Below, in pieces: positions 1-24,263 of a stretch of 64,000 bases of DNA. This stretch comes from Plumapathes pennacea. Lineage: Eukaryota; Cnidaria; Anthozoa; Antipatharia; Myriopathidae. Location of the stretch: assembly GCA_964036295.1 (NCBI GenBank), contig OZ038463.1:7307274-7371273 (forward strand). The letters are read 5' to 3'. The position numbers and the translations under genes were made by a program. Each line of letters starts with the position of its first letter. Within the stretch, counting starts at the first letter, position 1. The notes under the pieces were generated by a model. It had not been told where the DNA came from and made no database searches. It saw only the letters and a list, made by a program, of their open reading frames with translations.

Positions 1-3000
1 TGCGGTCATACTGCTGTCAGGAATACGATTCCTGTCCTGGACTCCCACTGCCTCACATGAACCTAAAGAGGACAATGACGCTTAACATTACAAACATGAA
101 TATTACATTTCCCAAACTAGAAATGTATTCTTTTTCCAGAGTTATTTTGTATCTATCTATATAATAATACGCTAAAACAAATCACCGTATTTTACGGGGG
201 TCCCGCTAGTCTATATAATAATAAGCTAATTCACTTCCGTCCGTCTGTAACGCTCTTTCCCAGGCCTCCTCGTAAAAAAACCCAAGATGGCCGCCACATC
301 GAGTGAAACTAATTTTAACAAATTGACGTCAGTTTTTTATGTATCTGTCCTCTTATTGATTATGAAACGCGTTATAACATTGTCAAAAAGTTGTGGATCC
401 ACGAGGCGCTTTGCCGAGTGGATCCGCAACTTTTTGACAATGTTATGACGCGTTTCATGATCAATAAGAGGACAGACACAAAAAACTGACGTCAATTTGT
501 TTTTTACAATAACAAAACTCAAGCGACGACGCGGGGAAAACACACAAGAAAACTGGATTTTGTTCAATTTGACCGAAATGTTGTCAACAACTTTTCCCGC
601 TTTCTAATTGTCGAGGTTAAAATTCAAGACATCTCATTGGCCAAAAAGTGACAGTTTGACGTGAGCATTTCGCGCGTGCAAAATAAAATTTTGTCAAAGA
701 AGTTGGAAAGAAATGAAACTAGACGCTTTTCTGCTGCTGTTTTCTCGACAATTTCAAGACAAAGCTCAAGGAAATTCGCCTCTGAATACTTCTGGTTCTC
801 TAATTCAAATGCCGAATGTCGCTTTTGCAAGAACTGAGGTAAAATTGAAGCTGAATTCACCTTCTTCGTCCAAATCACTGTCGTCAGCACTCGATTTTAT
901 GTGTCTGTCCTCTTATTAATAATGAAAATTAGCCAATCACAAAGCGAGAAACTGACGTGTTATTGTAAAAATAAATATTGGCCTCGTGTGCCGACCACAG
1001 TTCTTTTAGAAATCGGAAATCAATTTAAAAAGAGAATTTGTGCTGTCAGTTGACTGGATGTCGGGCTGATGCTTCCGCATGTTCAAAGAACGGGGAGATT
1101 TTCATGTCGATCGATTGCACTACAGAGAAGTTTATACTTTGACACTGGAAACTGCATTCGAGATGCTCGAAATGGACTTCAAAAAGAATAAAAGAAAGAA
1201 AAAAAGAAAAAAAAACCGATCACCGTATTTTACGGGGGTGCCGCTAGTTTGAAATACCCAGAAATTTCTAAACGACGACGGTTTACGTGAGTCAATTCAT
1301 CTACCGCTTGAAACACTCTACATGCCTCATGCCCTAAATCACCGTATCAGTTGAAGTGGGTACGACAAATCCTAAAGCTTTGAGTAAGCTCCTTTTTTTG
1401 CAGTTGCTCCAATGCTAATTTTCATTCTGTAGTAGTAGTGGGGCAAATAAAACGCTGCAGAGAGGGAGGAAACAAAGAGGGGCGCTGCTTCTTCTCTCCT
1501 CCGACTCCGCATTATTTTACTCGCCCATTCCTACTTCCAGATCAGCAAACAGGAACAAGCTTATATACATTGCAAGCTAACAAATATGCAATGTGTAGTT
1601 TGGGTATAAAATATACCAGGTTCTCATTTCATTAAATTGCAGGTGTGAACTACGAACCGAGACGGACATTCAGCTGCATTGAAGTTTGGGATTACCGTAA
1701 TGGCCTTGTTACAGTGTGCAATTTTCTTGATAACTTATTGTCGCACGAGACAAAATTTTGAAGATTCTCGCACTTTTTTCTTGTTGTTGTTCAGTCTTTG
1801 ACATCGTGCACGAAGTAGAACTGATACTTTTCGCAGGTCGCAGCAACTTTCAACATTGTGTTACATTATTTTTGCCCTCCAACGACTTCCCTCAGCCTAA
1901 ATTGCTAAGATCGCGTTGCACAGTGCAACATCTCGCCTCAGGCACCTGTAACAATACATTTTCGACCGTTACAAGGCAAGTTTCTTGGGTTGAGCGACGA
2001 GGAGACGACTGACATTTCAGGCTAGACAAATGGCTGCGAAAATTGCACAAAGTAAATCAGCGCCATAAGTTGGCTCATCCCGCAGGGTACTGTCTTTGTT
2101 TTCGACCTGCAGAAGAATATATACTCACGTTCTACATTCAGCTGCATTATAGCTGTAATTACATTAGGGGTGGATCCAGACCAGTGCCACCAGTTCCAAT
2201 AAACCAGTCAAATCTTTCTAATAATATTAGCATACTCGCAGTTTATGAGGTTGAAAACTGTTCTTCAGTACATCCTTACACAGACGCGACTGTTGTTTAT
2301 CCCACTTGCGACAAAGTGACGAAATGAATTGTACCGTTTAAACCCTGCGACATTCGATTCGTGTCGCGAAACATCGCAAGGGAAAAAATCGGTCTTTCCG
2401 CAAATAGACGTCAATGAGTGCAAAGGTCAAATAAGTGCACCCATCAAGACTCACTATGATTGGTTAGCCAATTTGTGCACTGGTCATGATCGCCTCCTAT
2501 TGGCCCTCGTTTTTCTTGTGCACCGGTCGTGAACTGGTCAGCCTTTATAAATATCCGTGCGATGGCGTCACATGCTCGAGAAAATCCTGTTTGTCGTAAA
2601 GACGATTGTTCAGCGTTCGACTCGGAATAGTGTATCAAGAAATCGCTAGATTTTCTGACGCGGAAAAGTTCCGATTCATTCAAAATATCTGGAAGCCAGA
2701 TACGCTCTTCCAGTTCCCGTTGACGAAAGAAACCGGCGGCCGACTTAGACAATTTAAACCAGACTGGCTCGTTTGTCACTTTTGGCTGGTTTATTCCAAG
2801 TACTTGAATGGCGCGTTCTGTTTGCCATGTGTCTGTTTTGGGATGGAATGTGGAAAGAATGGCGCAAAGGTGAATAAGCTATTTCGATCTCCGTTGACGT
2901 TTTTGACAACGGCGTGTGAAAAATTTCAAATCCATTCGAGCGGAAAATCGCAAATCCACAATTTTTCTGTGCTGGCCATGCAGCGATGACTAACATTATC

Positions 3001-6000
3001 CACCTTTGACATGTTCTTGTGTACTTTTGAAACGCTACACTTGCTATTTCTAGAGCACATATGGACTCATATAGGGACCTTCTTATAATCAAGCCAGGAA
3101 ACATACAGTATTGATGGCTAATACAACCAAATTGTGCGCTGTGCATAATTGTTGTGAATTAAAATCCACATTGAGTTAAAAAAGCGTCTGGTTATAGGGC
3201 ACTTTGTGGCCTTCAGATTTTCATTAAAATTCCCTGGAAAACGCAGGAAATCGCATTTCAGAGACTTAAAATTTCAAAATTTTCCGGGGGGGCATGCCCC
3301 CTACCCCCCTAGCGTCTCGCGCCTTTGGCGCTCGCACTGGTCACGAGAAAGGCTGGATCCACCCCTGTTACATTATGCATCCAATTTGTTTGAAGGCTGA
3401 GGAACATATTTGGATGTACATACACGAGAGGTTTCCATGTCATTTCTAAGGTTGTAAACACTTACTGAGACCATTTAGCTGCATTACGGCTTGTGATTTG
3501 AAGATCCCAATTGACGCAATGCAGATGTATTGTCCCTCGTCCTCTTTCACAACATTTGTTATCTTCAGAGTTCCGTCAGCAAGAACCTGGGACCTACCAG
3601 TTGGTAGCACTCCGTTTGACTTTGACCACGTGACTGTAATCCTGGAGTCGCCTGTGGCTCTGCAAATGGCTGACACATCCTTTCCTTTAGGAACTCTTAG
3701 AACTTCAGGAGGCTTCACAATGATTCTTGGCAGTGGTACAACAACCAAATTTGTCGAAGAGGAATCAGAACCAAGCGTGTTGGACGCCTCGCACTTGTAA
3801 AGACCTGAGTCTTGTTTGGTAACATTCATCAGTGTTACCTGCCCATCTTGCTGGACTTTGTTGATGACGGGCAAACTTCCAAACACTTTTGACCACGTGA
3901 CTTTAGGGACTGGAAAACCAGTCACATGACATTTTGGGAGAGTTACGTTTGTGTTTTCGGCGACATACGTTGGGCCAGCGTTGAGCGTAATCAACGGCTG
4001 GGCTAAAACGAATAGACGGACCATAAGTAAAGGATAGTAGTACCTTCATTAAATGGCCCTCTCTTAAACGGCCACTTATCAATGTCCTAAAACATTCTCA
4101 GAGTAACATACTGCTGGATTGTCCCCTTACTAAAAGGTTACTTCTAATAAGAGGCCAAATCTGAACGGTCCCAACTGACGTTTATCTTTGGCGTAATTTT
4201 ACCATAACTGGAAACAGAAACTAAAAATCGAACTAAATTGGCGGCCGTAGCACACTTAGTTGTTATCAGATTTTCATTCAGTACAAACGAAGCTTCACCA
4301 CACCAAGGCCCAGTGTTGATGTCCCACTATTAAGCGGCCACGAAGCAGTTCCCCACCAACAAAATTTTATACGTCGTTTACTTTGATGACTTACCTTGTA
4401 CGGTCAAATTACCAGATCCTTCCTGCATTCCTAGGATGTTTCTCGCCGAACATCTGTACATTCCCGAGTCCTGAAGGCCAACAGACTTTATCAACAGCTC
4501 CCCGAGATCTGACACTACCGTCCTGTTGCCAGGCAATGACCCACCGTCTCTCGTCCACTCAATCTGAGGTTTTGGATTGCCAGTCGATGAGCACTGAAGC
4601 CTCGCTGTCATGCTTTCGTTTGTTGTCACGCTTGAGGGAGAAACGATCACGTGAGGTGAGGAGATTGACTCTCCTGGTTTGCCTCTCGGTCCCGGCAAGC
4701 CTTGCGGACCTGCATCTCCTGTGTTACCTTTCTCTCCTCTGGGTCCAGGATTTCCCATAATGCCTTGCTTACCACTCTTTCCAGGTGGACCCATAATGCC
4801 TTGGTGGCCTGTTGCTCCTCGTCTTCCTTTCTGTCCTCTTTTCCCTCGACTTCCTCTCTGCCCAGGCTCTCCGGGAGGTCCACGTGGACCTGGTACACAA
4901 GCATTACTTCCTGACTGTTGACACATTTTGAATAAGGCGTCCACACGTTTATTGATTTCTTGTTTTATGTCGACTGGGGAAGGATTGCCTGCACTTCGTC
5001 TTGCTCTCTCCAACGGCTTATTCTCCTCTGCAAGTCACAAAAGCGAGGATGAGCAACAGTGTCAGAATACAAAATGAAAAATCCAACAGAACACATAACT
5101 CGCCCCATTTCAAACTAAACCATGCATCTTAGCGTCAAGTAAAATCTTAAAATAACAGTATAGTTCAAAGTTTGTTAAAAAAAACCTGGTACTTACCCAT
5201 TTGTCACGACATTTACACGCCGTTTGTAGTGTCGTATTTCAAAATCAGGAAAAAGCCTGAGGATACAAGTTCTTCCTGCATTTTATCGAATTGTTCATTA
5301 CCGAGTGTGTTCTGTTTCATTTAGCTGCGGCTTTATTTATATTTACTGACTTTACTAACTAAAGTTCCAAGAGACTCTGCCAGAAACAGCAAGATTAGGC
5401 ATCTAAATTGACGAAGTGTCCCGGCCACACATCAACATCACGTTAATCTATCGCCGATAGATATCAGAACTATTTCTCACAAAGACCAGCTACATTTCAC
5501 TTATTACTGTGTAAGACTTGAGAAATATATAACGCATTCCCGTGCAATTTAGCCTCACCTAAATACGTGGGAAGTTGGGAAAAAAGGAGAGTTAAGCGAA
5601 GGGAAACCACGAGGCCGCCAAGTAAGTAACTCGGAGTAACTTCAAGCAGTACTGGTTAAAAGTTTGATTGCAGTTTGACATTTGAATAAGTTTGTAATTG
5701 GCATTTCGAACTTGAAAATCCCTTTTCGTGTGACACACACTCTCTCGTTCAGTAGATCTTCGTAAATGACCGTATCGAGTTCGACATGCTACATTTCACT
5801 CGGATTGTTGACATTTCTGCAATTCTATGAGTCATTATTTTCCATATACACTAAAGCAGTTGCCCATAAATCGAATAAAACAGAGTGGCAGAGCCCAGAC
5901 AATGTCCATCATACAGCTGGTCATACTAGATTTGTAAAAGTTTGAAAATGGTATTTGTGAAATGGTCCTGTTCCGTTTGACACACTATTCGGCTTTCTCG

Positions 6001-6250
6001 ACTCTCTCTTAGTTTAGTTTGTAAACTGAACTAAGGAATGTATGGTACTAAAAAAAGCGATGGTTTAATACTGACCTGGGTCTGTGTGATGGACTGTGTT
6101 TTGCGCATCTTGAAGCGAGTTTAGTCTGCTGTCCTGGTCGTTCAAGCGAAGTTCGACCCTGATGAATCCAGCGCAGTACAACAGGATAGACAAAGCTGAC
6201 AGGACTGTACCGGGGCAGATAGAGTGACCACTGCGTTCCTTGTGAGCCAT
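1..6250 (-). CDS. Type II membrane collagen-Ig-discoidin protein, copy 1 (3' end outside window)
   Basis: Exons, high to low: 6250-6076, 5027-4395, 4002-3466 and 62-1 (continues past the window edge). All internal junctions are phase 1 with GT-AG sites, and the first three exons are 175, 633 and 537 nt, the same as in copy 3. Exon 1 encodes a short basic N-terminus, one hydrophobic segment (about residues 13-31) and a short heptad-like stretch: a type II signal anchor. Exon 2 encodes a linker with two Cys, about 25 Gly-X-Y collagen triplets and a first I-set Ig domain (DSGMYRC). Exon 3 encodes two more Ig domains (DSGLYKCEAS; EDEGQYICIAS). The last partial exon starts an F5/8C discoidin domain (SCEAVGVQD). 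I see no stop or frameshift. The domains suggest a trimeric cell-surface adhesion or recognition receptor; that role is inference. Its last intron (3465-63) is swollen by Helitron and hAT insertions. Confidence 0.82.
156..209 (+). mobile_element. Minimal Helitron, 54 bp (ends only)
   Basis: The element starts TCTATATAATAATACGC and ends with the small hairpin CCGTATTTTACGG, a short GC-rich spacer and CTAG. It sits after A155, as expected for Helitron insertion between A and T. Nearly all internal sequence is missing, so it consists of the two termini joined. The next Helitron starts at the adjacent base. Confidence 0.6.
210..1247 (+). mobile_element. Non-autonomous Helitron, about 1.04 kb
   Basis: It begins TCTATATAATAATAAGC immediately after the CTAG end of the mini-element and ends with the same hairpin CCGTATTTTACGG, a GC-rich spacer and CTAG, followed by T1248. 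It carries no Rep/helicase reading frame. Inside are a 181-bp inverted repeat and a third half-copy of the same arm near 895-940 (CTGTCCTCTTATTAATAATG). It lies in the last intron of copy 1 of the collagen-Ig-discoidin gene. Confidence 0.6.
319..499. repeat. Long inverted repeat inside the Helitron
   Basis: Arms of about 80 bp run from CAAATTGACGTCAG to CTGACGTCAATTTG and are nearly perfect complements around a short centre (GAGGCGCTTTGCCGAG). GGATCC occurs in both arms next to the loop. As RNA this would form a long hairpin. Confidence 0.8.
1248..2158. other. Intronic sequence, nothing recognised
   Basis: This stretch lies between the Helitron and the hAT element in the last intron of copy 1. 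I see no coding exon, terminal inverted repeat or tandem array. Short open frames here have no recognisable domains. Confidence 0.5.
2167..3367 (+). mobile_element. hAT-family DNA transposon, internally deleted
   Basis: The inverted ends are GGGGTGGATCCAG at the left and CTGGATCCACCCCTG at the right. An exact 8-bp target duplication, TTACATTA, lies at 2159-2166 and 3368-3375; 8 bp is the hAT hallmark. The left end appears to lack the terminal CA seen at the right. The interior keeps part of a transposase frame at 2606-2989. Confidence 0.78.
2606..2989 (+). pseudogene. hAT transposase fragment (TTF-type zinc finger)
   Basis: The 127-residue frame has a Trp/Cys pattern (KPDWLVCHFWLVY, then AFCLPCVCF) and the phrase PLTFLTTACEKF. 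These are typical of the TTF-type zinc finger at the N-terminus of hAT and ZMYM-like transposases. It stops before any DDE catalytic core or dimerisation region, and the element is too short to hold them, so it cannot be autonomous. The family assignment is from memory of the motif. Confidence 0.6.
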
Positions 6251-7578
6251 CTTAGTTTTACGAATGGTGGAAGATAACTGATCAGTTTATAACCGCTTCG
6301 TCAAGTTCTGAAATTTGATGCTCTGGTTAACAGATGGCTGATAGGTTTAGGCCTCACCCGGGGGTCTCACTCTCATTCCTGCGCGTATACCGCATAAATT
6401 CCGGCTATATTATTTCCTGAGGCTTTAAATAGTAAACTTTTTGAAACAAATACTTCTACTTAGGAACGTCTTTGTTACAGGTGACAATTACTGCTCGCGT
6501 TTTTTGGTCAAGACAAGAGAAAAGTGTCCGAACTGGATCGAGTGAAATATTTAGATAAAATTGTCAGAGGTCAAGGAGAATGTCAAACAGTTCCGTCTTG
6601 ACCAAAAACACTGAAATAATATTTGACTCCGTCAATTCCCATGGCCGGAAGTAGTAAGAAAGTTTTTCATCCGGGGAGGCAACTCCAACGCGTTTTTTCC
6701 TTTTGAACTTGTCTCCTTTCTACAGGTATTCCACTTGTTGGACATTTGTACAAGAGCCTCTGGCTCGGGTGAATAGGCAACCACTTCTTAATGCTTTGAC
6801 TTTTAACAAACGAAATTTATTTGTTTATATTTTGACGTCAGTGTATTTTACGGGGTCCCGATAGCACAGTTTAGATATCAGGGGTTTGTAGTGAGACGGT
6901 CACGTGAGCCAATTCCATGGAAACAAGACACGAGGATCTGTTCGACACAAAAAAGTGCCACAGTGTTGAAAATAATACTGTATTTCGGGCCATTTTGACC
7001 CAGGGCTGTGTTAAGCCTGATTTTATTTCACAACTTGTAAAGAAGGAAGTGGTTCCTAATAACGTCGACTGTTGACAGCAACAAAGAACAAACAACGAAA
7101 GCTACCCTAACTTTTGTTCGACTCCCAAAACTCATTCGTACTTGTAGTTGATATGCGCGACGTAATTTATTGTTTGCTGCTCTAAATTCATTGAAAATCC
7201 TCATTTTACAAATAGCTGTACAGCTGGATATTTCATCTTTAAAATGTTGCATACATTACATCATTCGGTATTCAGTAACTTTCTGATTACACGAGGTTTA
7301 GAAAACGGGTATTAGAATTTTTATTTTAATGAGGTAACAACTTTATCATTTCAGTTAAAAGGCATAATTTTTCTTAAAGCTAACAAAATCTTCCAGAGAA
7401 CGATATTTATCATTGCCCTGAAGCAGACGATAAAGACAACAAGTAAAACGGTGTATTTCCCTCGTAATCAGGATCCGTAGTTCAAAAGGTCGATAAGTAC
7501 AATATTCAAAGCCTTAAGTTTGATTACAGTTCGCCTTGATTCTGGTTTTGTTAAATGGCTACTGTTGTCTTTATCGCT
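6251..7578. other. Spacer between copy 1 and pseudogene copy 2
   Basis: No gene is seen. Part of the spacer (about 7010-7200) is clearly homologous to 11500-11700 upstream of copy 2, sharing GTTCGACTCCCAAAACTC, so the duplicated unit includes 5' flanking DNA. Positions 6845-6863 resemble a decayed Helitron 3' end (TATTTTACGGGGTCCCG). Confidence 0.6.
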
Positions 7579-8539
7579 TTATTTTAATACAAATATTTCA
7601 ACTCGAATAGCGGAAAAACTATGGTATGCTACAGGGTAGAAGCGGACGTAACGTGCATCGATAGAGGTCCCCAGTTGGTTCTTGACAACAGCCGGTGATC
7701 AGAATTTCCTTGAAATTCCTGTCCACAAAAAAAGGTGAACTTTCCTTACAACTTTGGTATATATCAAGGTAAGGCCATGTATCTAATCTGAATTTCGAGT
7801 GTTCGTCAGAGAATTATTCACCAGGTAGGGGTCTGTTATTTTTTTTATCATAGGAAGGAAAGGATGTTGGGGTTGTCCACTCGGTTTGGGATTAGAGAAG
7901 GGGAGATCACTCAGTTTTGTGTCAAGAAAAGAGGGTTGTATTAAATTTGAAGTACTCTGGAAGCACAAAGAAGCCATAGTCATGCAGACTAAACTTCTAA
8001 CTTCAAACATCATACCAATAGACAGGCAAGTAATGACACACTCGGCCCTCCACGACACAGTTATGGTCCTTAGAATAAGACAAAAAAAAAATACATACAT
8101 GTTGTTTTTTTAATTTCCTATGCATAGCTCATACTAACATTAAATAATTGGAAGGCACTCCTACCTTATCTTTATTATTTTCCTTGTAGAAGAACCAGTT
8201 GATTCCGTCATGAGACACTTCTAACTTGTATCGTGTGACTCATTCTCCGCCAGTACGTCTCCCTTGTGTTGCCACTGCGCAAACAGCGTGCTTTGTTTCA
8301 AGGTCAATCTACAGATAATCGTTTCTGTTATCTGTTGTTTTCGGATCCCAAGCACCATCTCCCCGTTTTTCGTGCAGCCGACCATAGTACGGATAATATC
8401 TGGTGCCGTAATAGCTCGTAGCGGTCGTACTGCTGTCGGGAATCTGATTCACATTCTGAACGCCCACTGGCTCACATGAGGCTAAAAATGAATAAACATT
8501 ACGAAAACGTTAAAATGCAATATCTATTATTTAGAGAGA

Positions 8540-9180
8540 ATGACTGGCATTTGGGCCACCGCATGGCCAGCGGATTAAATATACGCTGAATGTTTAACTC
8601 TATATTATTTCATTTTATTATCCTCGCTATAAATACTCAGCAAAATAATACGTAGGAATAAGAAAATAAGATAATAAAAATGAGACATGACAGGGAAACC
8701 ATAACAGCATATATATACCAATTACTGCGAGCCCGGATAATTTAAAACTAATTTACAAGCAACAACCGTAACCATGTTTTGTCACGTTGTGGGTAAAGTT
8801 ACAGGTTAGTACACTCAGATGCTTTTATAGGTTCCAAGGTCTTCTGGGTCATGAGTATTTGAGAGAGCATTTTTAAAGTAGGTGTTATATATAACTGTTT
8901 TGAGATATAAAAACTAATGTCACATGATGAAGAGAGTTCGCGGGGTCGTTCTCAAGTGTGTTCTAAGCGCTGGTTCATTGTCTTATCACAAATTATACGA
9001 CAATTGGGTGGAGCCATGTGCGTACAGTTAGAAGTACGGCAAAGAGTGCTAAGTCAAGGTAAACAAGTCAATAAATTTCGTGGCCCGTAGCTGGACCTGC
9101 TCCGTCTTTCTGGTAAGTTCCCGTTGAGTTTGAATGTGTCACCGACAAAATGAAGTTGATTTAAGTTGTGTTTAAAAACA
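8540..9180. repeat. Duplicated intron tract, paralogous to 13850-14480
   Basis: This intron of pseudogene copy 2 matches 13850-14480 in copy 3 over several hundred bases (for example AAATATACGCTGAATGTTTA in both). It marks the extent of the tandem duplication unit. I see no coding sequence in it. Confidence 0.75.
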
Positions 9181-11021
9181 GCAGGGCGAGCTTAAGTCAA
9201 AGTGGTTTTTCGGCCGAATGTGTGAGCACCAAGATAGCACTTTTGTTTATATAAACAATCCAGTTTTACAATCAGTTTAATTGCAGATTGTGACTGTTTA
9301 AAGATCCCAAATGACGCCTGCATTATGAGCTAGAGTATAACATTATTTTTTGCAAATCCGCCTGGAAATCAACAGCTTCAACTTGCATTTAACATTTCTT
9401 TCTCATGTTGCAAACTTCGAAAGCTGCTCTGACCAGACTGTGGCTACTTTTATCTGGGCGCTTCGCACCTTTTACGTTTCGAAATAATATCACCTGCCGC
9501 CTTGCCATGCACTAAAGGGTACGTCCACACCAATGCGGTTTCAAAAGTCTTCGTTTCCACAGCCCCCGTTTTCGCCCGTACACACTAATTCGTTTTTTCT
9601 TGAAAACGCATCCTATTTCGAAAGTCTCCACTTTGAAAACCGTTTTTGAAATTAAAAACCTCCGTTTTTGTAAACCTCTGTTGTCGAGTCATCGTTTTAG
9701 TGTAGACGGAAAGCAAAAATGCATAAAATGTATTCGTTTTCAAACAAAATCGGATTAGTGTGGACGGCGCGGGGCCTGATTTGTGAGGCCTTGCCATTTA
9801 TGTTGTCGCAAGACATTTCTTTCCATGATCAGGTCGATTGTAAATTCATGCAGAAGTCGAAAAAGAGGTCCTGTGGCTGCTAAATATAGCATTTCTCACC
9901 GACAGGGACCGATGATAACATTTTCGTCATTTTTTCACAAGTTGTACACGTGCCATCGTGTTAGTGTGAGCACTACCCGACATCCAACTGCATTCCAGCT
10001 TGCGATTTGAAGATCTCGACTGACGCAGTGCAGATGTATCGTCCCGAGTCCTCTTTTGCAACGTTTGTTATCTTTAGGGTTCCGTCAGCAAGAACCTGGG
10101 ACATACCAGTTGGGAGCACTCCGTTTGACTTTGACCACGTGACCGTGATCCTTGTGTCACCCAAGGCTTGCAAATGGCCGACTTCAGGAGGCTTTGCTAT
10201 GAGCTTTGGCAATGGCACAACAACCAAATGTGCCGTCGAGGAATCAGAACCGAGCGAGTTTGGACGCCTCGCATTTGTAAAGACCTGAATCTTGTTTGGT
10301 GACATTCATCAGTGTTACCTGCCCTTCTTTCTGTACATTGTTGATGACGGGCAAACTTCCAAATGCTTTGGACCACGTGGCTTTAGGGACTGGGAAGCCA
10401 GTCAAGTGACATTTTGGGAGGGACCAGCTGCATTCTATTGTAACTTGGAGTAACTTTTCGCAGTACAGATTAAATGTTTGATTGCAGTTCGACATTTGAA
10501 AAAGTTTGTAGTTCGCATTTCGAATTGGCCCTATTACTTTGATACCGTATCGAGTTCAAAATATTTTATTTTACGGAGAATGTTCAACATTTCCACAATC
10601 CTCCACGAGTGACTATTTTCCGTAAACACTGAAGGTGTTGCCCATAAATCGAAACTAATAAAAATAAAAAAAAGAACGGCAGAACCCAGACATGTCATAC
10701 ACAGCTGCTCACACTTGGATTGTAAATGGCATTCTTGGAATGGCCCTGTTCCGTTTGACACACTATTTGGCTAGCTCTTTCGACTCTCTCGTCCAGTTCA
10801 CTTTGTAAACTGTAACCAAGGAATACCTGGTACAAAAAAAAAAAAAAAAACGATGGTTAAATACCGACCTGGGTCTGTGTGCTGGACTGTGTTTTGCGCA
10901 TTTTGAAGCGAGTTCAGTCTGCTGTCCTGGTCGTTCAAGCGAAGTTCGACCCTGATGAATCCAGCGCAGTACAACAGGATAGACAAAGCTGACAGGACTG
11001 TACCAGGGCAGATAGAGTGCC

Positions 11022-11457
11022 TGTTGGGAACTGGGGACTAGTCATTGAGTAACAGCCTAGGGCCGACAAACAATTATAGTATTTAGGAGAGTATTAGTAA
11101 CCAGGATCATATAAGGTTTCCATTCGAAGGTTCAAGACGGCAGACATCTAGATAGAATGACGTAGTAGATGTTTTACGGTGCAGAAATGGCGGATGTGAT
11201 AAGATTTCGGACGTCAATCACGGACGTGTTTGCGAAAAATGATCTTGCTATTATTAGCAGCAATGTAATACCTGCTTTAGTAAATGAAGTCATACCTTTT
11301 TAGTAAACTGACTGTATAGATACGAGAGTCAAAGAGAAATAAATCACCTACATTCGATGAGATCGTTGTAGAAGTGAAAGTTGTAGTTCATCAATACTGA
11401 GCGGCAGTCATTCCGCTAAACTGATCCTAACGTACGGAGGCATAGTTTTTCCCGAAA
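11022..11457. mobile_element. 436-bp insertion in exon 1 of pseudogene copy 2
   Basis: The insert is flanked by TGCC at 11018-11021 and 11458-11461. Removing the insert and one TGCC shortens the exon from 615 to exactly 175 nt, the length in copies 1 and 3, which supports the boundaries. It begins TGTTGGGAAC and ends TTTTTCCCGAAA. The TG start resembles a solo LTR, but the 3' end is not CA, so the class is open. It contains no coding frame of note. Confidence 0.7.
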
Positions 11458-11846
11458 TGCCCACTGCGTTCCTTGTGAGCCATCTTAGTTTTACGAATGA
11501 TGGAAAATAACGCTTGGTCATGCTCTGAAAGAGGGAAGTGGTAATATTTTTTGCTAATAACGTCGTCCTGTCGACAGCAACAAAAAACAAAAAACGACGG
11601 CGACTCTTTTGTTCGACTCCCAAAACTCATTCGTACATAGCCTACTTGTAGTTATGCGATGTAATTTATTTTCTGTTGTTCTAATTCATTGAAAATCCAT
11701 ATAAAAATAGGTAAAACTGTGTATTTTTCCTCGTACTCAGAATTCGCAGTTCAGAAGTTCGATTAGAATATTCAAAGTATGATTACAGTCCGCTTTGATT
11801 CTGGTTTTGATGAGTGGCTACTAGTTTTTTTGTTTTTGTTTTTGTT

Positions 11847-11852
11847 TTTATT
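11847..11852 (-). promoter_or_regulatory. Putative polyadenylation signal of copy 3
   Basis: AATAAA on the minus strand, about 18 nt after the copy 3 stop codon. It is a motif match only. Confidence 0.4.
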
Positions 11853-11869
11853 ATCATTTTCTTTTCGCT

Positions 11870-12552
11870 CTATTTTAACACAAATATTTCGACTGCAATA
11901 TTGGGCCAACCATTGTACGCTACAGGGTAGAAGCGGACGTAACGTGCATCGATAAAGGTCCCCAGCTGGTTCTTGACTACAGTGCGGTGATCAGAATTTC
12001 CTTTGAATTCCTGTCCACGAAAAAAATAAAAAAAGGGGAACTTTATTCACAATAATCAGTATGCATCAAGGTAAGGGTTGACGTATCTAGCCTGAAATTT
12101 GATTCATTGGGATAGGGGCCTGTAATGCATTTTTTTTTTATCATAAGGAGGGGATCGAAGGTTTTTAGTAGTGTCCAATCAATTTAGGAAGCAGGGAAGC
12201 ATGATAATTTACAGTTATTTGAGGGGGAGATCAGATATAATTACTTGGTTTCCATACCCAACTTTTAGTCTTGGATAAAATGAAAAGTCGAATTTAATTT
12301 TTTTTTTTCTCTCACAATCAGCTTGCAAATCGAGTCGATAACAATGACTGTGCCAGGCAAAATGACGGTTGATCTAGTCAGTTTCTTGCCAAAGATCCTG
12401 CATTCTAAAGTATAGTACAGACTCGGCTTTCCGCGACACAAAGTAAAACGTGCACAGTAGCTCGGTGGTTGCCACAAACCCTTCCGTGCGGGTTTTCGAA
12501 ATTTATTTTCGCCGCACCGTTTTCTCACGGAACTGAGTTTTATTTTATTTTA

Positions 12553-12649
<97 letters not shown>

Positions 12650-15600
12650 GTTATTATTATTATTATTATTATTTTTATTTTAGCTTGTCACTTACTCCTC
12701 GTTCAACGGACCTGAGACCGAGACTTCTATTTTCAAACCGCCAGGGTCCTTAGAAAATATTGCTGAATTGTGAAAAATTATTCCGAATAGGACAAAAACA
12801 AAAATACATATAGAGGATATTACACGGCGGCGCAAAGATATGAATTTTATTTTCTAGTGGTAAAATATTGTTTTTACCACGAAAAAATAAAATCCATTTA
12901 TCATATAGACACGAGTGTTTTACTGGAAAATATACCGTGCGTAAAATCCATACGAAACTACATCCGGGACCTGAGTGGCGTATTTTCCATGATATCGTTG
13001 GAATCATTTCCCGCTTTTGCACGGTTGTTTGTGCTCGCGAAGGGCTCGTTCGTAAGATATTGTTTTTACCACTCGAAAATAAAATTCCTATCTTCGCGCA
13101 GCCGTGTAATATCCTCTATATCTTCAAGCCGCCGTGTAATTTTCTTTTATTATATAGACACGAGTGTTTTACGAGAAAATGCACAAACAACCGTGCAAAA
13201 CCGGGAAATGATTCCAACGATATCCTCACTAGTGAGGATATGGAAAATACTCCACTTGGGTCCCGGATGTAGTTTTGTACGGATTTTACGCACGGTATAT
13301 TTTCCAGTAAAACCCCAAGGGTGTGGTTTCCATCCACCCCCAACTCCTCCCCCTGTGCGGTGGCTGGCGTACTGACTTGCAGTTTATACGAAATTTATCA
13401 ACATTTTAAACTTAATGTAAACAGTTGGAAGGTATTCGTACCTTATCTTTATTATTTTCCTTGTAGAAGAACCAGTTGATTCCGTCATGAGACACTTCTA
13501 ATTTGTATCGCGTGACCCATTCTCCGGGCGAACGTCTCCCTTGTGTTGCCACTGCGCAAAGAGCGTGCTTTGTTCCAAGGTCAATCTGAAGATAATCGTT
13601 TCTGTTGTGTTTTGTTTTCGGTTCCCAAGCACCATCTCCCCGTTTTTCGTGCAGCCGACCATAGTACGGATAATAGTTGCTATTGTAGTAGCTCGTAGCG
13701 GTCATACTGCTGTCGGGAATCTGATTCACATTCTGAACGCCCACCGGCTCGCATGAGGCTGAAAAAATTAATGAACGTTGCAAAAATTTTAATACAATAT
13801 CTATTATTCAGAGTGAAATGACTGACACTATTTAGTGTATTTGGAACAACTTTGCTTGTTGCATTTGGGCCAGCACATGGCCGGCAGATTAAATATACGC
13901 TGAATGTTTAACTCTATTTTACTTTATTTTATTATACTCGCCATAAAATACACAGCAAAATAATACGTACGAATAAGAAAATAAGGTAATAAAAATGAGA
14001 CCGGGTCCAGATAATTTAAAACTAATTACAAGCAGCAATTAATCATATTCGTCAGGTTGTGGGTAAAGTTACGAAAATTAAAAAGTACGGATATTATTAT
14101 AGGTTCTAGGGTATTCTGGGTCATGAGTATTTGGAAGAGCATTTTTATAGTAGGTGTTATATATAACTGCTTTGAGATATAAAAATTAATTTCACATGAT
14201 AAAGAGAGCTCGCGGGGTCGTTCTCAAGTGCGTTCTAAGCTCTGGTTCATTTTCATATCAGAAATTGTACTACAATTGGGTAGAAACGTGTGCGTACAGT
14301 TAGAAGTACGCCAATATTAATATTATAACTACTTCAGCAACATCTTTGAAAAAGAGTGCTAGGTCAAGATTGATAAGTTAGTTAATAAATTCGTGGCTCG
14401 TTGCTGGACCTGCTCCGTCTTTCTGGTAAGTCCCCGTTGAGTTTAAATGTGTCACTGACAAAGTGAAGTTGATCTAAGTTGTGATTAAAAACAACATTAA
14501 CAAAACATAGGTCCGCAAAGCGTACGTGAAGCTATTTGCTAGTTGATGATAGTCTATGATAGGTAGTTCGTGTTACAACGGGGCACGAACTACATCGAAT
14601 ATTATCACCGTTTGATCGGGGTTTTACACTATGTTCTACTATGCCAGCTACGTACTATGCATGGCCAAACACAAATGCACAAACATGACAGTTTATTATA
14701 TGATTATTTTGAGCTGATCGACATAAAAGGAGGAAAGTATAGCTTGCCAAAATATTTCAAGTCGTTCTGTAAATTTCTGCGAGGTAAGCCAGACTTTGAC
14801 TCGTTATAGTAGTTTCGTATAACGTAACACACTCCAGCCAAACAAACCTGTTTCTCGTGCTCTTCGAACGGTGGTGAAATAGATTCACAGTAAAATTTCC
14901 TGTCGACTTTTCAGTCGATTTTTCATTAGCGACAAAACCCGCTAGAGACAATTTTTGTGAACAAACAACTCAGACAAACCACAGTCGATCTGGTCATGAA
15001 ATCATGTGTCAACAAACATATCATGCGAGGTAAACCAGATTTTGACTCGTTATAATAGCTTCGTAACGTAGCACACTCCAGCCGAACAAACCTGTTTCTC
15101 GTGCTATTCGAACGGTGGTGAAAAGGATTCACAGTAAAATTTCCTGTCGACTTTTCAGTCAATTTTTCATTAGCGACAAAACCCGCTAGAGACAATTTTT
15201 GTAAACAAACAACTCAGACAAACCACAGTCGATCTGGTCATGAAATCATGTGTCAACAAACATATCATGCGAGGTAAACCAGATTTTGACTCGTTATAAT
15301 AGCTTCGTAACGTAACAAACTCCAGCCGAACAAACTTGTTTCTCGTGCTATTTGAACGGTGGTGAAAAGGATTCACAGTAAAATTTCCTGTCGATTTTTC
15401 ATTAGTGACAGAATCCGCTCGAGACAATTTTATAAACAAACAACTCAGACATACCACAGTCGATCTGCATTTGCAATTATGACATGAAATCATGTGTCAA
15501 CAAACATATCAGCGAACGCAAAAAAAACTCAGAATAAGCTTTTACCTTTGCCAAAACATATGTCATGGTCACACCATACAGCTGTGTTCCTTCTTTTGTG

Positions 15601-18600
15601 AGCGGAGCGTATATTCGCAAATGTGTCCGGAAATGTCGCTCTAAATGTGAATCTGTGTCGCCTGTTTGCCAGATACTACGGATATGTCAGACGGGGGCTG
15701 AAGGGGGAGCAGATTTCCACATGCAACCAAAGAATCTGCAACGCTCACAGCCGCCATTATAATGCCTTGAACTTCCACGTGCGAGAGAGCCGATTATATT
15801 TAGAAAGCCCCTCCCTGGAGAGGTAATTTAGCTTCTGACATTCTGTCGCAGTTATAACATTAGCACGGAAACCCTTTACTGGAAATCTCTCTGTGCATTC
15901 TTTGTGTTAAGTAGATAATAAAAGACAAACTTTCTCACAGGACCTGTACCACGGCGGCTTTTATATGGATAACACTTCATGCTCCTCCCCCCTCAGTAGT
16001 CTTTGCCTCCTAAAGGGGGAGCATTTTAATGACCTAATGAGATGGGCCGAACGGCTGTTCAACTATCGCCCAAACGCCGACATAGAAGCTATTTGCATAT
16101 TGCAAATAGCTTCAAAAACGGCAATGAAAACAATGCTATTCAATTTTCAGATAGTAACACGGTTAAGCCCGTTGAAATTCAGGGCATAAAAGCTTAAATC
16201 AAAGTCGTTTTTCGGCCGAACGTGTGAGCACCAAGATAGCACTCTTATTTGTATAAACAATCCAGTTTTACATTCAGTTGAATTACAGATTGTGACTGTT
16301 TGAAGATCCCAACTGCCCCCATTCAAGACGCCTGCATTATGCAGCTATTTCAGTTGTTTTAAGGTTCCGGTATGAACTTGGATGTACATATAAAAGGAAA
16401 ATAAACACTTACTGATTACATCCAGCTGCATTGCAGCTTGCGATTGGAAGATCCCTACTGACGCCGTGCAGATGTATCGTCCCTTGTCCTCTTTCACAAC
16501 ATTTGTTATCTTCAGAGTTCCGTCAGCAAGAACCTGGGACCTACCTGTTGGTAGCACTCCGTTTGACTTTGACCACGTGACTATGATCCTGGGGTCACCT
16601 GAGGCTCTGCAAATGGCCGACACATCCTTTCCTTTAGAAATATCTAAAAATTCAGGAGGCTTCAGAGTGATCTTTGGTAATGGTACAACAACCAAGTGCG
16701 TCGTAGAGGAATCAGAACCAAGCGAGTTGGACGCCTCGCATTTGTAAAGACCCGAGTCTTGTTTGGTGACATTCATCAGTGTTATCTGCCCTTCTTGCTG
16801 CACATTGTTGATGACGGGCAAACTTCCAAATGCTTTGGACCATGTGACTTTAGGAACTGGGAAACCAGTCACGTGACATTTTGGGAGAGTTACGTTTGTG
16901 TTTTCCGCGACATACGTTGGCCCAGCGTTGAGGGTGACTAACGGCTGAGCTAAACGGAAATAAACAGTCGTAAATTAACATACAGTCGAGCATCTGTATT
17001 AACCGATCCTCTATTAGGCAGCCACCCTCTATTAAACGGCCATTTATTATAGTCCTAAAAATATTCTCAGCTTATCCGTTGGCGTAATATTTCCTCAAGA
17101 GAACAGAAAGTGAAACTTGAGCTAAATTAGAGACAGTAGAGCAGTCTTACTTGTTGTCAATAAATACTTTACTACAGGGGACTGTACAACCAAGTTTTTG
17201 TACGTTGTTTCTTTTTGTGTACTTACCTTGTACGGTCAAATTAACAAATCCTTCCTGCACCCCTAGGATGTTTCTCGCTGAACATTTGTACACTCCCGAG
17301 TCCTGAAGGCCAACAGACTTTATCAAGAGCTCCCCGAGATCTGACACTTTTGTCCTGTTGCTAAGCAACAACCCGCCGTCTCTCGTCCACTTTATTCGAG
17401 GTCTTGGATTGCCAGTCGCTGAGCACTGAAGCCTCGCTGTCATGCTTTCGTTTGTTGTCACGCTTGAGGGAGAAACAATCACATGAGGTACAGAGATTGA
17501 TTCGCCGGGCTCGCCTTTTGGTCCCGGCAAGCCTCGCGGACCTGCATCTCCTGCGTTACCTTTCTCTCCTCTGGGTCCAGAATTTCCCATAATGCCTTGC
17601 TTACCACTCCTTCCTGGTGGGCCCATAATGCCTTGGTGGCCTGGTGCTCCTCGTCTTCCTTTCTGTCCTCTTTTCCCTCGACTTCCTCTCTGCCCAGGCT
17701 CTCCGGGAGGTCCACGTGGGCCTGGTACACAAGCATTACTTCCTGACCGCTGACACATTTTGAGCAAGGCGTCCACGCGTTTATTGATTTCTTGTTTTAT
17801 GTCGACCGGGGAGGGATTGGGGGCACTTCGTCTTGCTCTCTCCAACGGTTTACTCTCCTCTGCAAGTCACAAAAGTGAGGATAAGTCAGATTACAAAATG
17901 AAAAATCTTACAGAAGTATGAGCACACCCCACTTCATAACTACACGCGCCCAGCGTCCATTTTCAGCGCAGGGTAAAGATTTAGCAAAACAACATTTTTT
18001 GTTTAAAAATACCTTTGCACGAGCGTTGCGACTACGCATTTACATCGTCTCAAAACTAAAAAAAGCCCAGGGACGAGGCGGGATTTAAGTTCTTCCTGCT
18101 ATTTATCTAACTGCACAATGCTAAGTGTGACTGCTGTTTCATTTGCTAATTGCAGTTATTTATTTATCTATCTATTTATTTATTTATTTATTTATTTTTA
18201 TTTTCTGACATTTATCAAACTAAAGTTGCAAGACACGTAGCCAGAAAACAGCAAGAAGTCAGGCTAATTTAAGCTGACTCAACAAGTCAAGACTGCTCTT
18301 GTTGCTTATAAACGAGACTACGTCGACTTTCCTCTACGCCGCCTAAAACCAAAACTTGTTCTCACAAAGACCAGCTGCATTCCACTGTATTAAACTGGAC
18401 AAATTTTACACAGTTTGATCGCATTTGTCGTATCGAGTTTGACATATTTTATTTCATGAAGAATTTCCGCAATCCTCCATTTAGTCAATATTTTCAGTTC
18501 ATAAACATGAACTGCAGTTGCTCATAAATTCAAGAAAACGGAGCAGCAGAACCCAGTCATGTTTATCCGTATATAGTGAGCTGCTCACACTTGGGTCGTA

Positions 18601-18911
18601 AAAGTTTAATTGGCTTTTTTGAACTGGTCCTGTTCCGTGACACACTATCACTCTTTCGTTCAGTTCAGTGTCTAAACTGAACTAAGGAATGCCTGGCACA
18701 AAGACAAAAAGCAGTTCAGACTAATGGTTTACCGACCTGGGTCTGCTTGTTGAGCTGTGTTTTGCGTATCTTGAAGCACGTTTAGTCTGCTGTCCTGATC
18801 GTTCAAGCGCAGCTCGACCCTGATGAACCCAGCGCAGTACAACAGGATAGACAAAGCTGACAGGACTGTACCAGGGCAGATAGAGTGACCACTGCGTTCC
18901 TTGTGAGCCAT
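11870..18911 (-). CDS. Type II membrane collagen-Ig-discoidin protein, copy 3 (complete)
   Basis: Five exons: 18911-18737, 17859-17227, 16949-16413, 13758-13442 and 12010-11870, with lengths 175, 633, 537, 317 and 141 nt. Junction phases 1,1,1,0 all join, giving 600 residues. Residues 1-58: basic N-terminus, a single membrane anchor (about 13-31) and no cleavable signal. Residues 59-104: helical linker with Cys94 and Cys102, likely interchain bonds. Residues 105-179: 25 Gly-X-Y triplets. About 182-265: Ig1 (DSGVYKCSA). Exon 3: Ig2 (DSGLYKCEAS) and Ig3 (EDKGRYICTAS). The last two exons encode an F5/8C discoidin domain (SCEPVGVQN to AVEIFVLK). The usual closing Cys of F5/8C domains is absent. 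Several N-glycosylation sequons are visible. The inferred role is a trimeric surface receptor binding glycans, matrix or cells. I do not recognise a named family with this exact order. Confidence 0.88.
12541..12683. repeat. (TTA)n simple repeat
   Basis: A nearly uninterrupted TTA/ATT microsatellite in the final intron of copy 3. It creates a spurious poly-Tyr reading frame. Confidence 0.95.
12903..13318. repeat. Foldback/MITE-like repeat, family A
   Basis: The left arm (about 12905-13010, starting TAGACACGAGTGTTTTACTG) is the reverse complement of about 13180-13316 (ending CCAGTAAAAC), including a shared segment TTGCACGGTTGTTTGTGC. Another copy of the same sequence is at 20155-20500, so it is a dispersed element. 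It has no coding capacity. Confidence 0.75.
13850..14480. repeat. Duplicated intron tract, paralogous to 8540-9180
   Basis: The counterpart of the tract in pseudogene copy 2, in the intron between the Ig exon and the discoidin exon of copy 3. The homology ends shortly before a region unique to copy 3 that holds the 245-bp tandem repeats. Confidence 0.75.
14563..14593. repeat. Short hairpin
   Basis: GTAGTTCGTG pairs with CACGAACTAC around an 11-nt loop. It is intronic and its function is unknown. Confidence 0.6.
14779..15512. repeat. Tandem repeat, about 245 bp x 3
   Basis: Units start with GCGAGGTAAGCCAGA or GCGAGGTAAACCAGA at 14779, 15025 and 15269 (periods 246 and 244). The third unit has an internal deletion and changed ends. 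The units give similar short open frames on the minus strand; these share no known domain and are probably by-products of the repeat. It lies in the long intron of copy 3 and is absent from copy 2. Confidence 0.85.
16085..16113. repeat. Perfect 13-bp palindrome
   Basis: GAAGCTATTTGCA and its exact complement are separated by TAT. The arms contain ATTTGCA(T), an octamer-like sequence. It is intronic. Confidence 0.7.
18167..18208. repeat. (TTTA)n simple repeat
   Basis: A tetranucleotide microsatellite in intron 1 of copy 3. Confidence 0.9.
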
Positions 18912-19852
18912 ATCTTAGTTTTACAAATGATGAAAAACAATTGATCAGTTGATCCACATGACACAGCTCCCAGTTAATCTCTGAAATTTGATAAGCTAGA
19001 AGCACTGGTAAGCAGAAGGCTGACAGGTTTGGGTTTTAACCTATTCGCCCTCATGTATAGGCAAGTCCCAGTTATTATTTCCTGATCACAACTTTCATTA
19101 TAAAGCAGACTTTATGTAGCAAGTCAAGTAAAGAACTACTCGCGTTTTCTAGAAAAGGCAACAAAAAGTGTCCGAAGCCGGTCGAATGATATATTGAGAA
19201 TGAAAGGTCAAAATAAACATGAAATAATGACTTATTGAGTATCTCAGACTTCCGTTTCAGTCTTGATCTCGTGCCTCGTGCATGCGCGGGGGATCAGCAG
19301 CTGAAGCAGAGCAGTTTCAGGGAGACGGATATCCTCTTTCCAAGGCTTACGTTTCATTTTTCCTGACCGCACTATTTTTAATCTATGGAAAATCTACTAA
19401 TTTTTTTATAGTTTACATTATTTTAGAAACATATCACTATCAGGATCCGGCTTTTCTAACCTTAGAGGGGAATCCCCGTTCTGACTGGCCGTTTTTTAGT
19501 AGAAGCTTGTCCAAGGCGTTTATTGCAAAAGACACTTGTTTTAAAAGCTATTTGGTCAAGTTTTCCTAAAAGGTTTTCAGGATTGGTCAAATGATTTGGG
19601 CGGAGCTGTAACTGTTGACGTTGCGTATTTAGTTCTAAATGTTTATATTGTACGGCGCGACATGTTTGCACTTCTAAGGGTTCAATCAAAGTCATCCCTC
19701 ATGCCCCCAAATAGATTCACAATAATCTGTGTTTTTACGATTGTTGCTATACGTAGCGTATTGTCAATACAGATTAAACGCGTCCATGCGACGTATTTTC
19801 AGGCAATTGTCTTCATGTCTCAGCAGCCGTAAAATATACTTAGAAATCCATT
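18912..19852. other. Intergenic spacer, copy 3 promoter side
   Basis: This lies between the start codon of copy 3 and the 3' end of the PAN-fibrinogen gene, both on the minus strand. I see no coding exon. The copy 3 promoter must lie near 18912-19300, but I could not pick out a TATA box or other element. Confidence 0.5.
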
Positions 19853-19863
19853 TTTATTATCCA

Positions 19864-22800
19864 CTAAATACATGGACGCATCTTCATTTCCGACTTTTTC
19901 ATGGAGTAATCAAATCCTTTCCAGTCTGACCATATGATTCCTTCTCCATATTTACTCGCGTGACTGGAGTGATACTGTCCATTCAGATTTGCATGGTGAC
20001 ACCACTTGTGCCACCAGCCTCCCTTAAACTTCACAGCACAGTTTCCATCAGACTTGATATCGTTGTCTCTGTCTAGAGTGGTAAAACTTGAACCTTTGCT
20101 GTATGAGAGGGAATCACCTGCAGAACCTAGAGGCGAAAAGCGAAAGAACATAATTTATTTTATAGACACGAGTGTTTTACTGGAAAATATACCGTGCGTA
20201 AAATCCATACGAAACTACATCCGGGACCCGAGTGGCGTATTTTCCATATCCACACTAGTAAGGATATCGTTGGCATCATTTCCCGCTTTTGCACGGTTGT
20301 TTGTGCAATTTCTTGTAAAACATTTGTGTCTAATATAATAAAAAGAAAATTACACGGCGGCTTGAAGATATGGATTTTATTTTCTCGGGGTGAAAACAAT
20401 ATTTTACTCACTCGCAAAGCGCTCGTTCGTAAAATATTGTTTTTACCACTCGAAAATAAAATTCATATCTTCGCGCCGCCGTGTAATATCCTCTATGTAT
20501 AAAAATGACAAAAATCGGTGGGTTGAAAATGATGGTAGCATAAGTTGGCCAAACTTCAGTGACAACGACCAGAGGGAGGGAAAGTAAATTTAATAGAAGG
20601 TGGGGGAGGGAACCTGGAAAAGAAGAGGGAAAAGTAAGCCAAAGACCGGAATGGCCAGAGGGTTGGAACTGGGCACTTAGAGAAGTCAGAATGAGAAACA
20701 AAACATGACGAAAGGAAAGAAAATATGAAATTGGAGTAAATGTGAAGTGAAAAATATTATCTAAAATAAAAAATACAAGACTAAATATTTGCCTAAATAG
20801 ACGAGGGAGCACTGGGAGGCATTCAAAAGACAAAGAACATTGCACATTCAATATATCTCAGTGTACACAAGAACGCTTTACCCGCGCAGTAGCTGCCAAC
20901 ATCCAGTTTGTAGTTGTCGAGTTCGCTCGAAATGACAAAAACATCGTATGCTGCTTCACTCTTCTTTCCTTCCCAGTCCTCCAGCTCAATACGCAATGTA
21001 TTGTGGGAGAAACTCGTCAACTGGTGAAGCTTTTCAAGCCCGAGCCAAAACTCGCCAGTCAGGTTGCCAAACCCGTTCTTGTACTGATCCCATTTGCGGT
21101 TAAAATGAACGGAGCCGTCAAGCCTCCTCTGAAATACAGCCCACCCCCCTCCGTCTGTGGTTTGATCACAGTACACGTCAAATTTACCCAGACCGCCGAG
21201 GTCAATAACATAGACGCCACTATCGTTGTACCCAGCTTTTAGAACGTCGGTGCAATCCTTGAATCCTGCGTTTAAGAATGGCAAATACCTCATTAACTAG
21301 TTAGCGAAATTTTTAGAAAAAGTTTTTTTTTCCTGTAGCGAACATTTTATTCGTACACTCCGGCGTTGATGTTGCGCGATTCACTGACTGAAAGAAGTGC
21401 ATTGGTACATACATATTGCATCCCTGTGTAATAGAACTGTACGTCACAATGTTAGAAAACATCCTGTACGTGATGATAATCTGCAACTTACTCACCTTGC
21501 TGTTTCTCAGAATTACTTGTGCTTTTCTGAAACACATAATATGTCGAAAGTGCATTTACATTAATTGACAAAGAGACAGCCATGTAGTAGCCTGCAGTGT
21601 AGCTGAGTGTAATGTTCCTGATCACACGTACATATTAAGAAAGTCGATCAGTAAACTGCATAAACACACGCCGAAAAGTATATTGCCACAACATGACAGG
21701 ATATGATAGGATAGGATGTAGGCAAACCAAATGCATCCAAATATATTCACAATAATCTGTGTTTCAACGTTTGTTGCTATTCACGTAGTGGAGTATTGTC
21801 AATACAGACTAAACGCGTGCGACGTATTTTCCGGCGAATGTCTTTATGTCTCAGTAGCTGTAAAATATACTTGGAAATCCAATTATTTTTACTATATATA
21901 ATAAATGCATGGACGCGCATCTTCATTTCCGAAGTTTTGATGGACTAAAACAGTCGGTTGCTGTCATTCTGTCACGGACTGTTCTTTAGACTTATTGAAA
22001 GTCTTTACGAAGCGGACTCTTTGCCGACTGAAGGCGATCTTAGTGCAAAGAACAACACAGCTATATCCACCTGGACGCTAAAACCTTTAATTGGTACTTC
22101 CACTATATGACAGGTGAAATTAATAGTGTACTGCGCGGTTCAGCGTTGGAACTTGTCAACTGGCTGATGCCTTTTTTCGTGCGTAAGATGTTTTCAAACT
22201 GCAAAACTGTGACGTGGAAGAACAAGAGAGCAACACTGAGCTCGACTAACAAGTCAGAGATCAGTACAGGGATGCAGAACGAAATAGTGAGCAAGGTTCA
22301 ATCATAGACTTGCATCCAATAGAGGAGCGGACACACAGCAAGTTGAGATAGGAACAGTGAGAAAAATTACTCAAAAAAATAGAAACCGTCAAAACGGTTG
22401 AAAGTTTGAAGATTGGCCGTTTAGCCTAGTGCACTAGATTGTATACCCGTGGTAAATGACTTAAACCTGCTCCGTTATGAAACATGTAAACGTTTAAGTT
22501 TGTTTCCTCCGTGAGTAGTACTATTTCATTTCTGCCAGTTCCGGTTTTCTGCTACTCGGCTCTCTTTTTCAAGGAAAATTATGAATCAAAGTGAAATTAT
22601 TTAAAAGCAATTAAATATTAAGCAGGCAATACTGTTCTTCCACATTAAAAGCTAACTTTCTCGCTTAGAATACACTAGATAGACAAGAAATTTCTAAATC
22701 AGTACCTTGGTAGGTCGAAGCTGGTGGAAAACAAAGCCTTGGGCGTAGACCAGAGCGCGCGCGGCTGAAGCTTCACACCTTTTCTCGAGTCCCTGTGCGT

Positions 22801-23831: not shown

Positions 23832-23874
23832 GGGCCCGGTTTGACAAAGCACGATTATGCTAATCCTGGATTAG

Positions 23875-24163: not shown

Positions 24164-24263
24164 CTGGAAGGTGGCGACCCTGCCAGGACTACTTTTGGAG
24201 CGATTACTTATACTTTCTTTCACGGAGTAAAAGGTACGTGCAGCGAGTGGTGAATGTTTACTT

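Follow-up and report, generated by a model that had tools for sequence, protein, structure and literature searches.

A tandem array of predicted membrane-anchored collagen, immunoglobulin and F5/8C genes in Plumapathes pennacea, and relatives carrying other heads on the same stem

The window analysed here is a stretch of 64,000 nucleotides from the antipatharian Plumapathes pennacea (assembly GCA_964036295.1, contig OZ038463.1, positions 7,307,274 to 7,371,273; this contig is called C2 below). The minus strand of positions 1-18911 holds three related genes, A, B and C, and the tandem array proposed in an initial annotation of the sequence is therefore real. That annotation gave all three copies the same domain order, which is correct for C and A and incorrect for B, a pseudogene without the collagen/Ig1 exon. 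Copy A has the exon order of copy C, but it crosses the left window edge and its last exon lies up to 965 bp outside. The features, including a neighbouring fibrinogen gene, are as follows.

18911-11873, minus: copy C, whole gene, intact, five exons
18737..18911, minus: copy C exon 1, cytoplasmic tail and predicted membrane anchor (splice model, hydropathy, genome homologues)
17227..17859, minus: copy C exon 2, RARR site, Cys pair, 25 Gly-X-Y triplets and Ig1 (splice model, Pfam, motif count)
16413..16949, minus: copy C exon 3, Ig2 and Ig3 (splice model, Pfam)
13442..13758, minus: copy C exon 4, first part of the F5/8C head, head type I (splice model, Pfam, PDB matches)
11873..12010, minus: copy C exon 5, remainder of the F5/8C head, then the stop codon (splice model)
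7582..11483, minus: copy B, whole pseudogene
11483-11457, minus: copy B start piece, split from the other part of exon 1
11019-10867, minus: copy B exon 1, remainder
10423-9979, minus: copy B exon 3 (Ig2-Ig3), broken
8479-8165, minus: copy B exon 4, with two stops
7692-7582, minus: copy B exon 5
6076..6250, minus: copy A exon 1 (end placed by likeness to copy C)
4395..5027, minus: copy A exon 2, RARR site, Cys pair, collagen and Ig1 (homology, splice model)
3466..4002, minus: copy A exon 3, Ig2 and Ig3 (homology, splice model)
1..62, minus: copy A exon 4, head type II, its start alone in the window, the remainder to the left
C2:7306452-7306309, minus: copy A exon 5 (last), outside the window
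19873-23032, minus: fibrinogen gene with a signal-peptide-like start, a PAN-like exon (23032-22706) and fibrinogen exons (21272-20880 and 20118-19873)

In the splice model the five exons of copy C join to a product of 600 amino acids without a stop, the length originally given. From its N-terminus it consists of a short tail, a predicted membrane anchor, an RxRR site, a Cys pair, 25 Gly-X-Y triplets, three Ig domains and an F5/8C head. The domain-database search that had been proposed bears out this order, with Pfam returning collagen (PF01391; 53.6 bits, cut-off 27.2), three Ig stretches and F5_F8_type_C (88.8 bits, residues 467-593). The anchor was recognised from hydropathy as a 19-mer with a KD value of 1.79 that follows the first 15 residues, and a type II anchor with a collagen stalk and a recognition head, as first read, fits the sequence with the orientation predicted. 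In a search against solved structures, the head gave hits to coagulation factor V, neuropilins, factor VIII and lactadherin, with a best E of 2.1e-26.

The array continues beyond the left window edge with three further copies (G1, G2 and G3), giving six copies over 48 kb (C2:7278327-7326184). The dead copy that had been noted is copy B, which lacks exon 2 and has a broken exon 3 and two stops in its head exon. In G1 the collagen exon is truncated at the 5' end. Window 18156-23874, a segment that contains copy C exon 1 and the neighbouring PAN-fibrinogen gene, is repeated with 98.9% identity at C2:7298414-7304150, and window 16673-18203 is also repeated (98.0%). G3 is the copy of C from that duplication, and frameshifts already split its Ig2-Ig3 exon and its head exon. 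With this second dead copy inside a duplication of about 98-99% identity, the proposed birth-and-death evolution fits the sequence. The PAN-fibrinogen gene was duplicated along with the F5/8C genes, and copies of it lie at C2:7300132-7303291 (98.9%) and, diverged, at C2:7274707-7277264; it was considered as a family member and rejected, as its signal-peptide-like start and PAN-like exon were seen by eye and no stem exon was seen. A 244-bp unit is present in 2.9 tandem copies at window 14778-15467, inside intron 3 of copy C, the intron of the head break described below.

Searches of the genome of this one individual assembly (290 Mb, 24 contigs) showed that the stem is not confined to the array. 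Exon 2 of copy C gave 65 one-piece matches over both its collagen and its Ig1 part and 4 more in two abutting pieces, so that this part is encoded at at least 69 places, on contigs C1, C2, C3, C5, C6, C8, C9, C10 and C11; the figure is a lower bound because the best 150 of 1385 candidates were scored, and some of the places may be pseudogenes. Homologues of the anchor exon were found at 39 places (E<=1), among them F5/8C, C-type lectin, PAN-like and fibrinogen loci and, weakly (E ~0.002), SRCR loci; at the COLFI-like, glycine-rich and sushi loci no anchor exon was identified. The seven anchor exons that were measured encode tails of 8-17 residues and reach KD values of 1.67-2.42 over 19 residues. 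Among the 34 exon 2s with an intact 5' part, RX[KR]R stands just before the collagen in 29 (RARR in copies A and C) and RXXR in 33, with four of the five that lack the former retaining the latter. A C-x(5-9)-C motif precedes the collagen in 30 of the 34 by pattern, or 31 when L028 is counted by eye, and some exon 2s are without one Cys of the pair. The splice script sought phase 1 alone at module borders, and good splice sites there are therefore support, not proof, of equal phase; of its output, the ends of exons 2-5 were used for copy A and the Ig2-Ig3-head exon for L038.

Our reading covered 37 genes, the six of the array plus 31 from other loci, a sample picked by us and not random; 34 of them belong to the 69 collagen-Ig1 places, with B, G1 and L044 outside. 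A head could be called in 33, and the head class of L024, L025, L028 and L039 was left uncalled. The calls are as follows.

F5/8C: the six array genes, L016, L018, L019
C-type lectin: L017, L021, L022, L023
SRCR: L026, L027
COLFI-like: L031, L032, L033, L035, L037, L038, L041
Fibrinogen: L042, L043, L044
ALK-type glycine-rich: L030
Sushi: L036
Intelectin-like (weaker call): two in L029; L034; L040
PAN-like (weaker call): L020
EGF (weaker call), perhaps not the last domain: L045

Pfam searches with ten representative proteins back seven of these classes, namely F5/8C, C-type lectin, SRCR, fibrinogen, COLFI, ALK glycine-rich (27.8 bits, cut-off 24.5) and sushi; calls beyond these representatives were made by reading the sequence. 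Neither the PAN-like nor the intelectin-like heads had a Pfam match. For L020 there was none in NCBIfam either, while L029 gave a sub-threshold NCBIfam match (16 bits, cut-off 30) and a weak match to intelectin-1 (E=0.01). A PDB search with the COLFI-like head gave nothing at E<=0.01. Genes of this branch encode the head and Ig2-Ig3 in one exon and thus have no exon border between stem and head; in L037 (C8:16759500-16763300) a second, similar head exon lies further downstream (2798-3628). The fibrinogen-headed L044 (C8:3354300-3357000) has an RVRR site and Ig domains but lacks a collagen stretch; loss of the stalk is thus possible. Possibly broken relatives are retained in the counts: L016, whose last exon appears frameshifted, L042, with an in-frame stop in its fibrinogen head, and L024 and L025, which look degraded. 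F5/8C domains themselves (PF00754) are too common in the genome to help, with at least 172 matches among the best 150 of 1239 candidates scored. One F5/8C exon pair, L046 (C1:14.98 Mb), was rejected as a family gene because by eye no stem lies in the preceding 3.2 kb, and a large cluster of F5/8C exons at C5:18.0-18.6 Mb, 44-50% identical to the array heads, has no stem among the matches listed nearby.

The stem is that of CniFL, the cnidarian ficolin-like proteins made up of collagen, Ig and fibrinogen domains, a family said to have been first described in Baumgarten et al. 2015. The initial annotation knew of no named family with this exact domain order, and within the literature searched this stands for the F5/8C order, though not for the stem. 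Array and CniFL have in common a membrane anchor, collagen and mostly three Ig domains, and fibrinogen-headed genes of this genome have stem exons homologous to the array's. They differ in that the array carries an F5/8C head instead of fibrinogen, and its stem clade lies apart from the fibrinogen/SRCR clade. In an anemone survey, CniFL were defined by collagen, Ig and fibrinogen domains; most had a transmembrane domain and three Ig domains, some had a WAP domain, and the authors give copy numbers of 1 to 7 (PMC5094078). CniFL with anchor and Ig domains go up in Vibrio-infected Exaiptasia (PMC7654579), and CniFL are reported to be higher in animals without symbionts (PMC4840205). Copy C has collagen, three Ig domains and a transmembrane segment (hydropathy only), but F5_F8_type_C rather than fibrinogen (PF00147), which places the array outside CniFL in its strict definition despite the homologous stem. 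On contigs C1, C5 and C6, by coordinates, 15 of the 17 one-piece stem matches have a fibrinogen match 1.7-7 kb downstream on the same strand, and these are canonical CniFL.

Ficolins and collectins resemble the family in joining collagen to a fibrinogen or C-type lectin recognition head. They are secreted and are not known to have Ig domains, unlike the array genes, which carry Ig and are predicted to be anchored. Vertebrate class A scavenger receptors (MARCO, SCARA5, SRCL) are type II proteins with collagen that end in SRCR or C-type lectin domains (PMC5119243); compared by domain make-up, they have no Ig between collagen and head and no F5/8C or fibrinogen head. The array genes have collagen and a predicted type II orientation, but no terminal SRCR or C-type lectin domain. 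Such a terminal domain occurs in the relatives L026 and L027 (SRCR) and L017 and L021-L023 (C-type lectin), which also carry Ig domains. Collagens XIII, XXIII and XXV, also type II, are cleaved by furin directly before their first collagen domain, and the ectodomains of colmedins are also released (PMC7848082). These membrane collagens and colmedins lack the combination of Ig and recognition head, colmedins carrying olfactomedin instead. Copies A and C have a predicted furin-type site (RARR) before the collagen, followed not by several interrupted collagen domains without a recognition head but by one short collagen stretch, Ig domains and F5/8C. A scavenger receptor survey of six cnidarians reports two proteins with collagen and SRCR, both from Acropora digitifera and with a CUB domain (PMC5119243), and a C-type lectin survey has the majority of its cnidarian species without collagen-bearing ones (PMC8260672). 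No description of one stem with many heads was found in the passages of literature searched, which lie mostly outside the subscription journals; protein databases may hold such architectures without comment. In our sample, which was not random, 30 of the 33 called heads are not fibrinogen, and searches that require a fibrinogen domain therefore pass these genes over.

Within the array, stem and head differ sharply in their divergence. Between C and A, dS is 0.16, 0.19 and 0.28 in exons 1-3 and 1.07 and 1.37 in the head exons 4-5, a contrast with p=3e-13 in a Fisher test on rounded synonymous counts. Exon 4 separates the copies into two head types, with dS of 1.07-1.18 in the four cross-type pairs (C-A, C-G1, A-G2 and G2-G1) and of 0.205 (C-G2) and 0.135 (A-G1) within types. 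The DNA of C and A is 80-90% identical in stretches that begin before exon 1 and stop 12 nt past exon 3, and in intron 3 no similarity between the two was found; this places two head cassettes on nearly the same stem, and the break falls where intron 3 begins. C and G2 are alike in stretches through intron 3 and the head, and so are A and G1. The mosaic fits either head exchange or stem conversion. A climb of dS from exon 1 to exon 3 in C-A, as conversion tracts would give, extends from exon 1 to exon 5 in cross-type pairs. All exon pairs have dN/dS below 1, with a maximum of 0.70 (A-G1, exon 4). Residue changes in the head are denser in three loops aligned to what we take to be the membrane-binding spikes of factor V C2: 12/39 loop sites against 5/66 others in C-G2 (p=0.005) and, as changes in loops and elsewhere, 14 and 5 in A-G1 (p=0.0005), 8 and 3 in C-B (p=0.018), 15 and 6 in G2-B (p=0.0007) and 23 and 17 in C-A (p=0.0009), the pairs not being independent and the loops having been drawn partly after the data were seen.

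Across the genome, head and stem do not share one common history. Stem trees were built from 30 of the 37 genes, omitting B, G1 and L044, which have no collagen exon or part of one, and G3, L024, L025 and L039, from which no Ig2-Ig3 sequence was taken. In these trees the F5/8C loci fall in two separate places, as do the C-type lectin loci. A single clade was rejected for the F5/8C stems (AU p 3.7e-5; 7.3e-4 without the collagen columns) and for the C-type lectin stems (AU p 6.1e-6; 1.2e-10 without them), the head groups tested having been named after the heads had been seen. The F5/8C and C-type lectin loci, each in two groups, share one stem clade (99/97) with the PAN-like locus, and among neighbours 47-53 kb apart on contig C9, L017 has a C-type lectin head and L018 and L019 have F5/8C. 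Head labels are still clustered on the stem tree (11 changes for 11 groups, against a shuffled mean of 20.5), and heads thus change now and then, not freely. The C-type lectin head occupies one exon in L017 and two in L021-L023, and this difference in layout suggests that the two groups took up their heads separately. F5/8C heads may have moved between stems or been taken up twice. In the tree of F5/8C heads, support is 16/0, and one clade for the four array heads is not rejected (AU p 0.34).

We think it likely that the array genes encode trimeric, perhaps sheddable type II recognition receptors, built on the CniFL stem and diversified by duplication and head exchange. The collagen would wind three chains with anchored N-termini into a short stalk, the Cys pair would link the chains, and the Ig domains would serve as spacers that hold out three heads, joined for avidity. 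Glycans or lipids could be the ligands of the heads, whether on microbes, on symbionts or on dying cells, and with so short a tail the receptor would depend on a partner for signalling. RxRR lies where furin cuts collagens XIII, XXIII and XXV, and by this analogy ectodomain release is possible; a furin-like protease could then give, from one gene, both a tethered receptor and a soluble, ficolin-like agglutinin. New specificities would come from tandem duplication, from head cassettes being exchanged at a breakpoint where intron 3 begins (or from stem conversion that leaves differing heads in place), from uptake of unrelated head domains and from change in the head loops. An immune function of the array genes is what we infer from these features, and analyses of the array and the family gave no pointer to allorecognition in particular, the other role the initial annotation had raised. 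Absent from that annotation were the kinship with CniFL, the array's mosaic make-up, the RxRR site and the fact that stems elsewhere in the genome bear other heads. For the family as a whole, we lean towards a modular innate system in which one trimeric, perhaps sheddable stem, encoded at about 69 places, carries at least seven unrelated heads that recombination at the start of intron 3 can exchange as whole cassettes, CniFL being the fibrinogen branch alone. CniFL, so far studied through that branch, would become part of a wider, testable family. Many microbes have to be recognised even by animals that lack antibodies, and partner choice is a further task for corals and anemones; if true, swapping heads on a common stem would offer a simple route to a repertoire, with parallels in vertebrate scavenger receptors and ficolins.

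The array mosaic could also have arisen without any head exchange, if gene conversion had kept the stem exons alike around two head types that are old alleles or paralogues. This is possible, though we would not put it at even chances. It predicts the same low stem and high head dS, the climb in dS across the exons is in line with it, and a single clade for the four array heads is not rejected. Against it are the sharpness of the break, 12 nt past exon 3, and the unrelated heads across loci, which do not follow the stem tree and which conversion of stems within the array leaves unexplained.

The function proposed for the products can be questioned as well. Adhesion proteins are found among the type II collagens that carry a furin site ahead of the collagen (PMC7848082), the F5/8C heads match structures of neuropilin and discoidin receptors as well as lactadherin, and dN/dS is below 1, all of which would suit adhesion or matrix molecules whose stem ties cells to matrix or to each other (compare collagen XIII and gliomedin), with heads as adhesion modules and copy number as drift. 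We regard this as unlikely, as many lectin- and scavenger-type head classes on one stem, tandem arrays with dead copies and denser residue change in head loops are more usual in recognition families, and fibrinogen-headed relatives respond to infection (PMC7654579). It seems more doubtful still that exon 1 encodes a signal peptide that is cleaved off, leaving purely soluble, ficolin-like agglutinins. By eye the hydrophobic stretch closes in small residues (Cys-Ala-Gly), a possible signal-peptidase site, and the charges on its two sides are nearly equal; however, hydropathy is high over 19 residues in all seven anchor exons, a transmembrane domain is annotated in most published CniFL (PMC5094078), and an RxRR release site would be needless in a secreted protein.

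Elsewhere in the window, a single plus-strand ORF of 1824 aa at 24231-29705 looks by eye like a BEL/Pao-type retroelement and is flanked on both sides by the same short tandem repeat (24031-24069 and 29912-29950). Further on, at 30787-34686 on the plus strand, a PAN-like exon (30787-31137), an EGF-like segment (33062-33667) and an extracellular exon (34132-34686) were seen by eye and perhaps form one gene.
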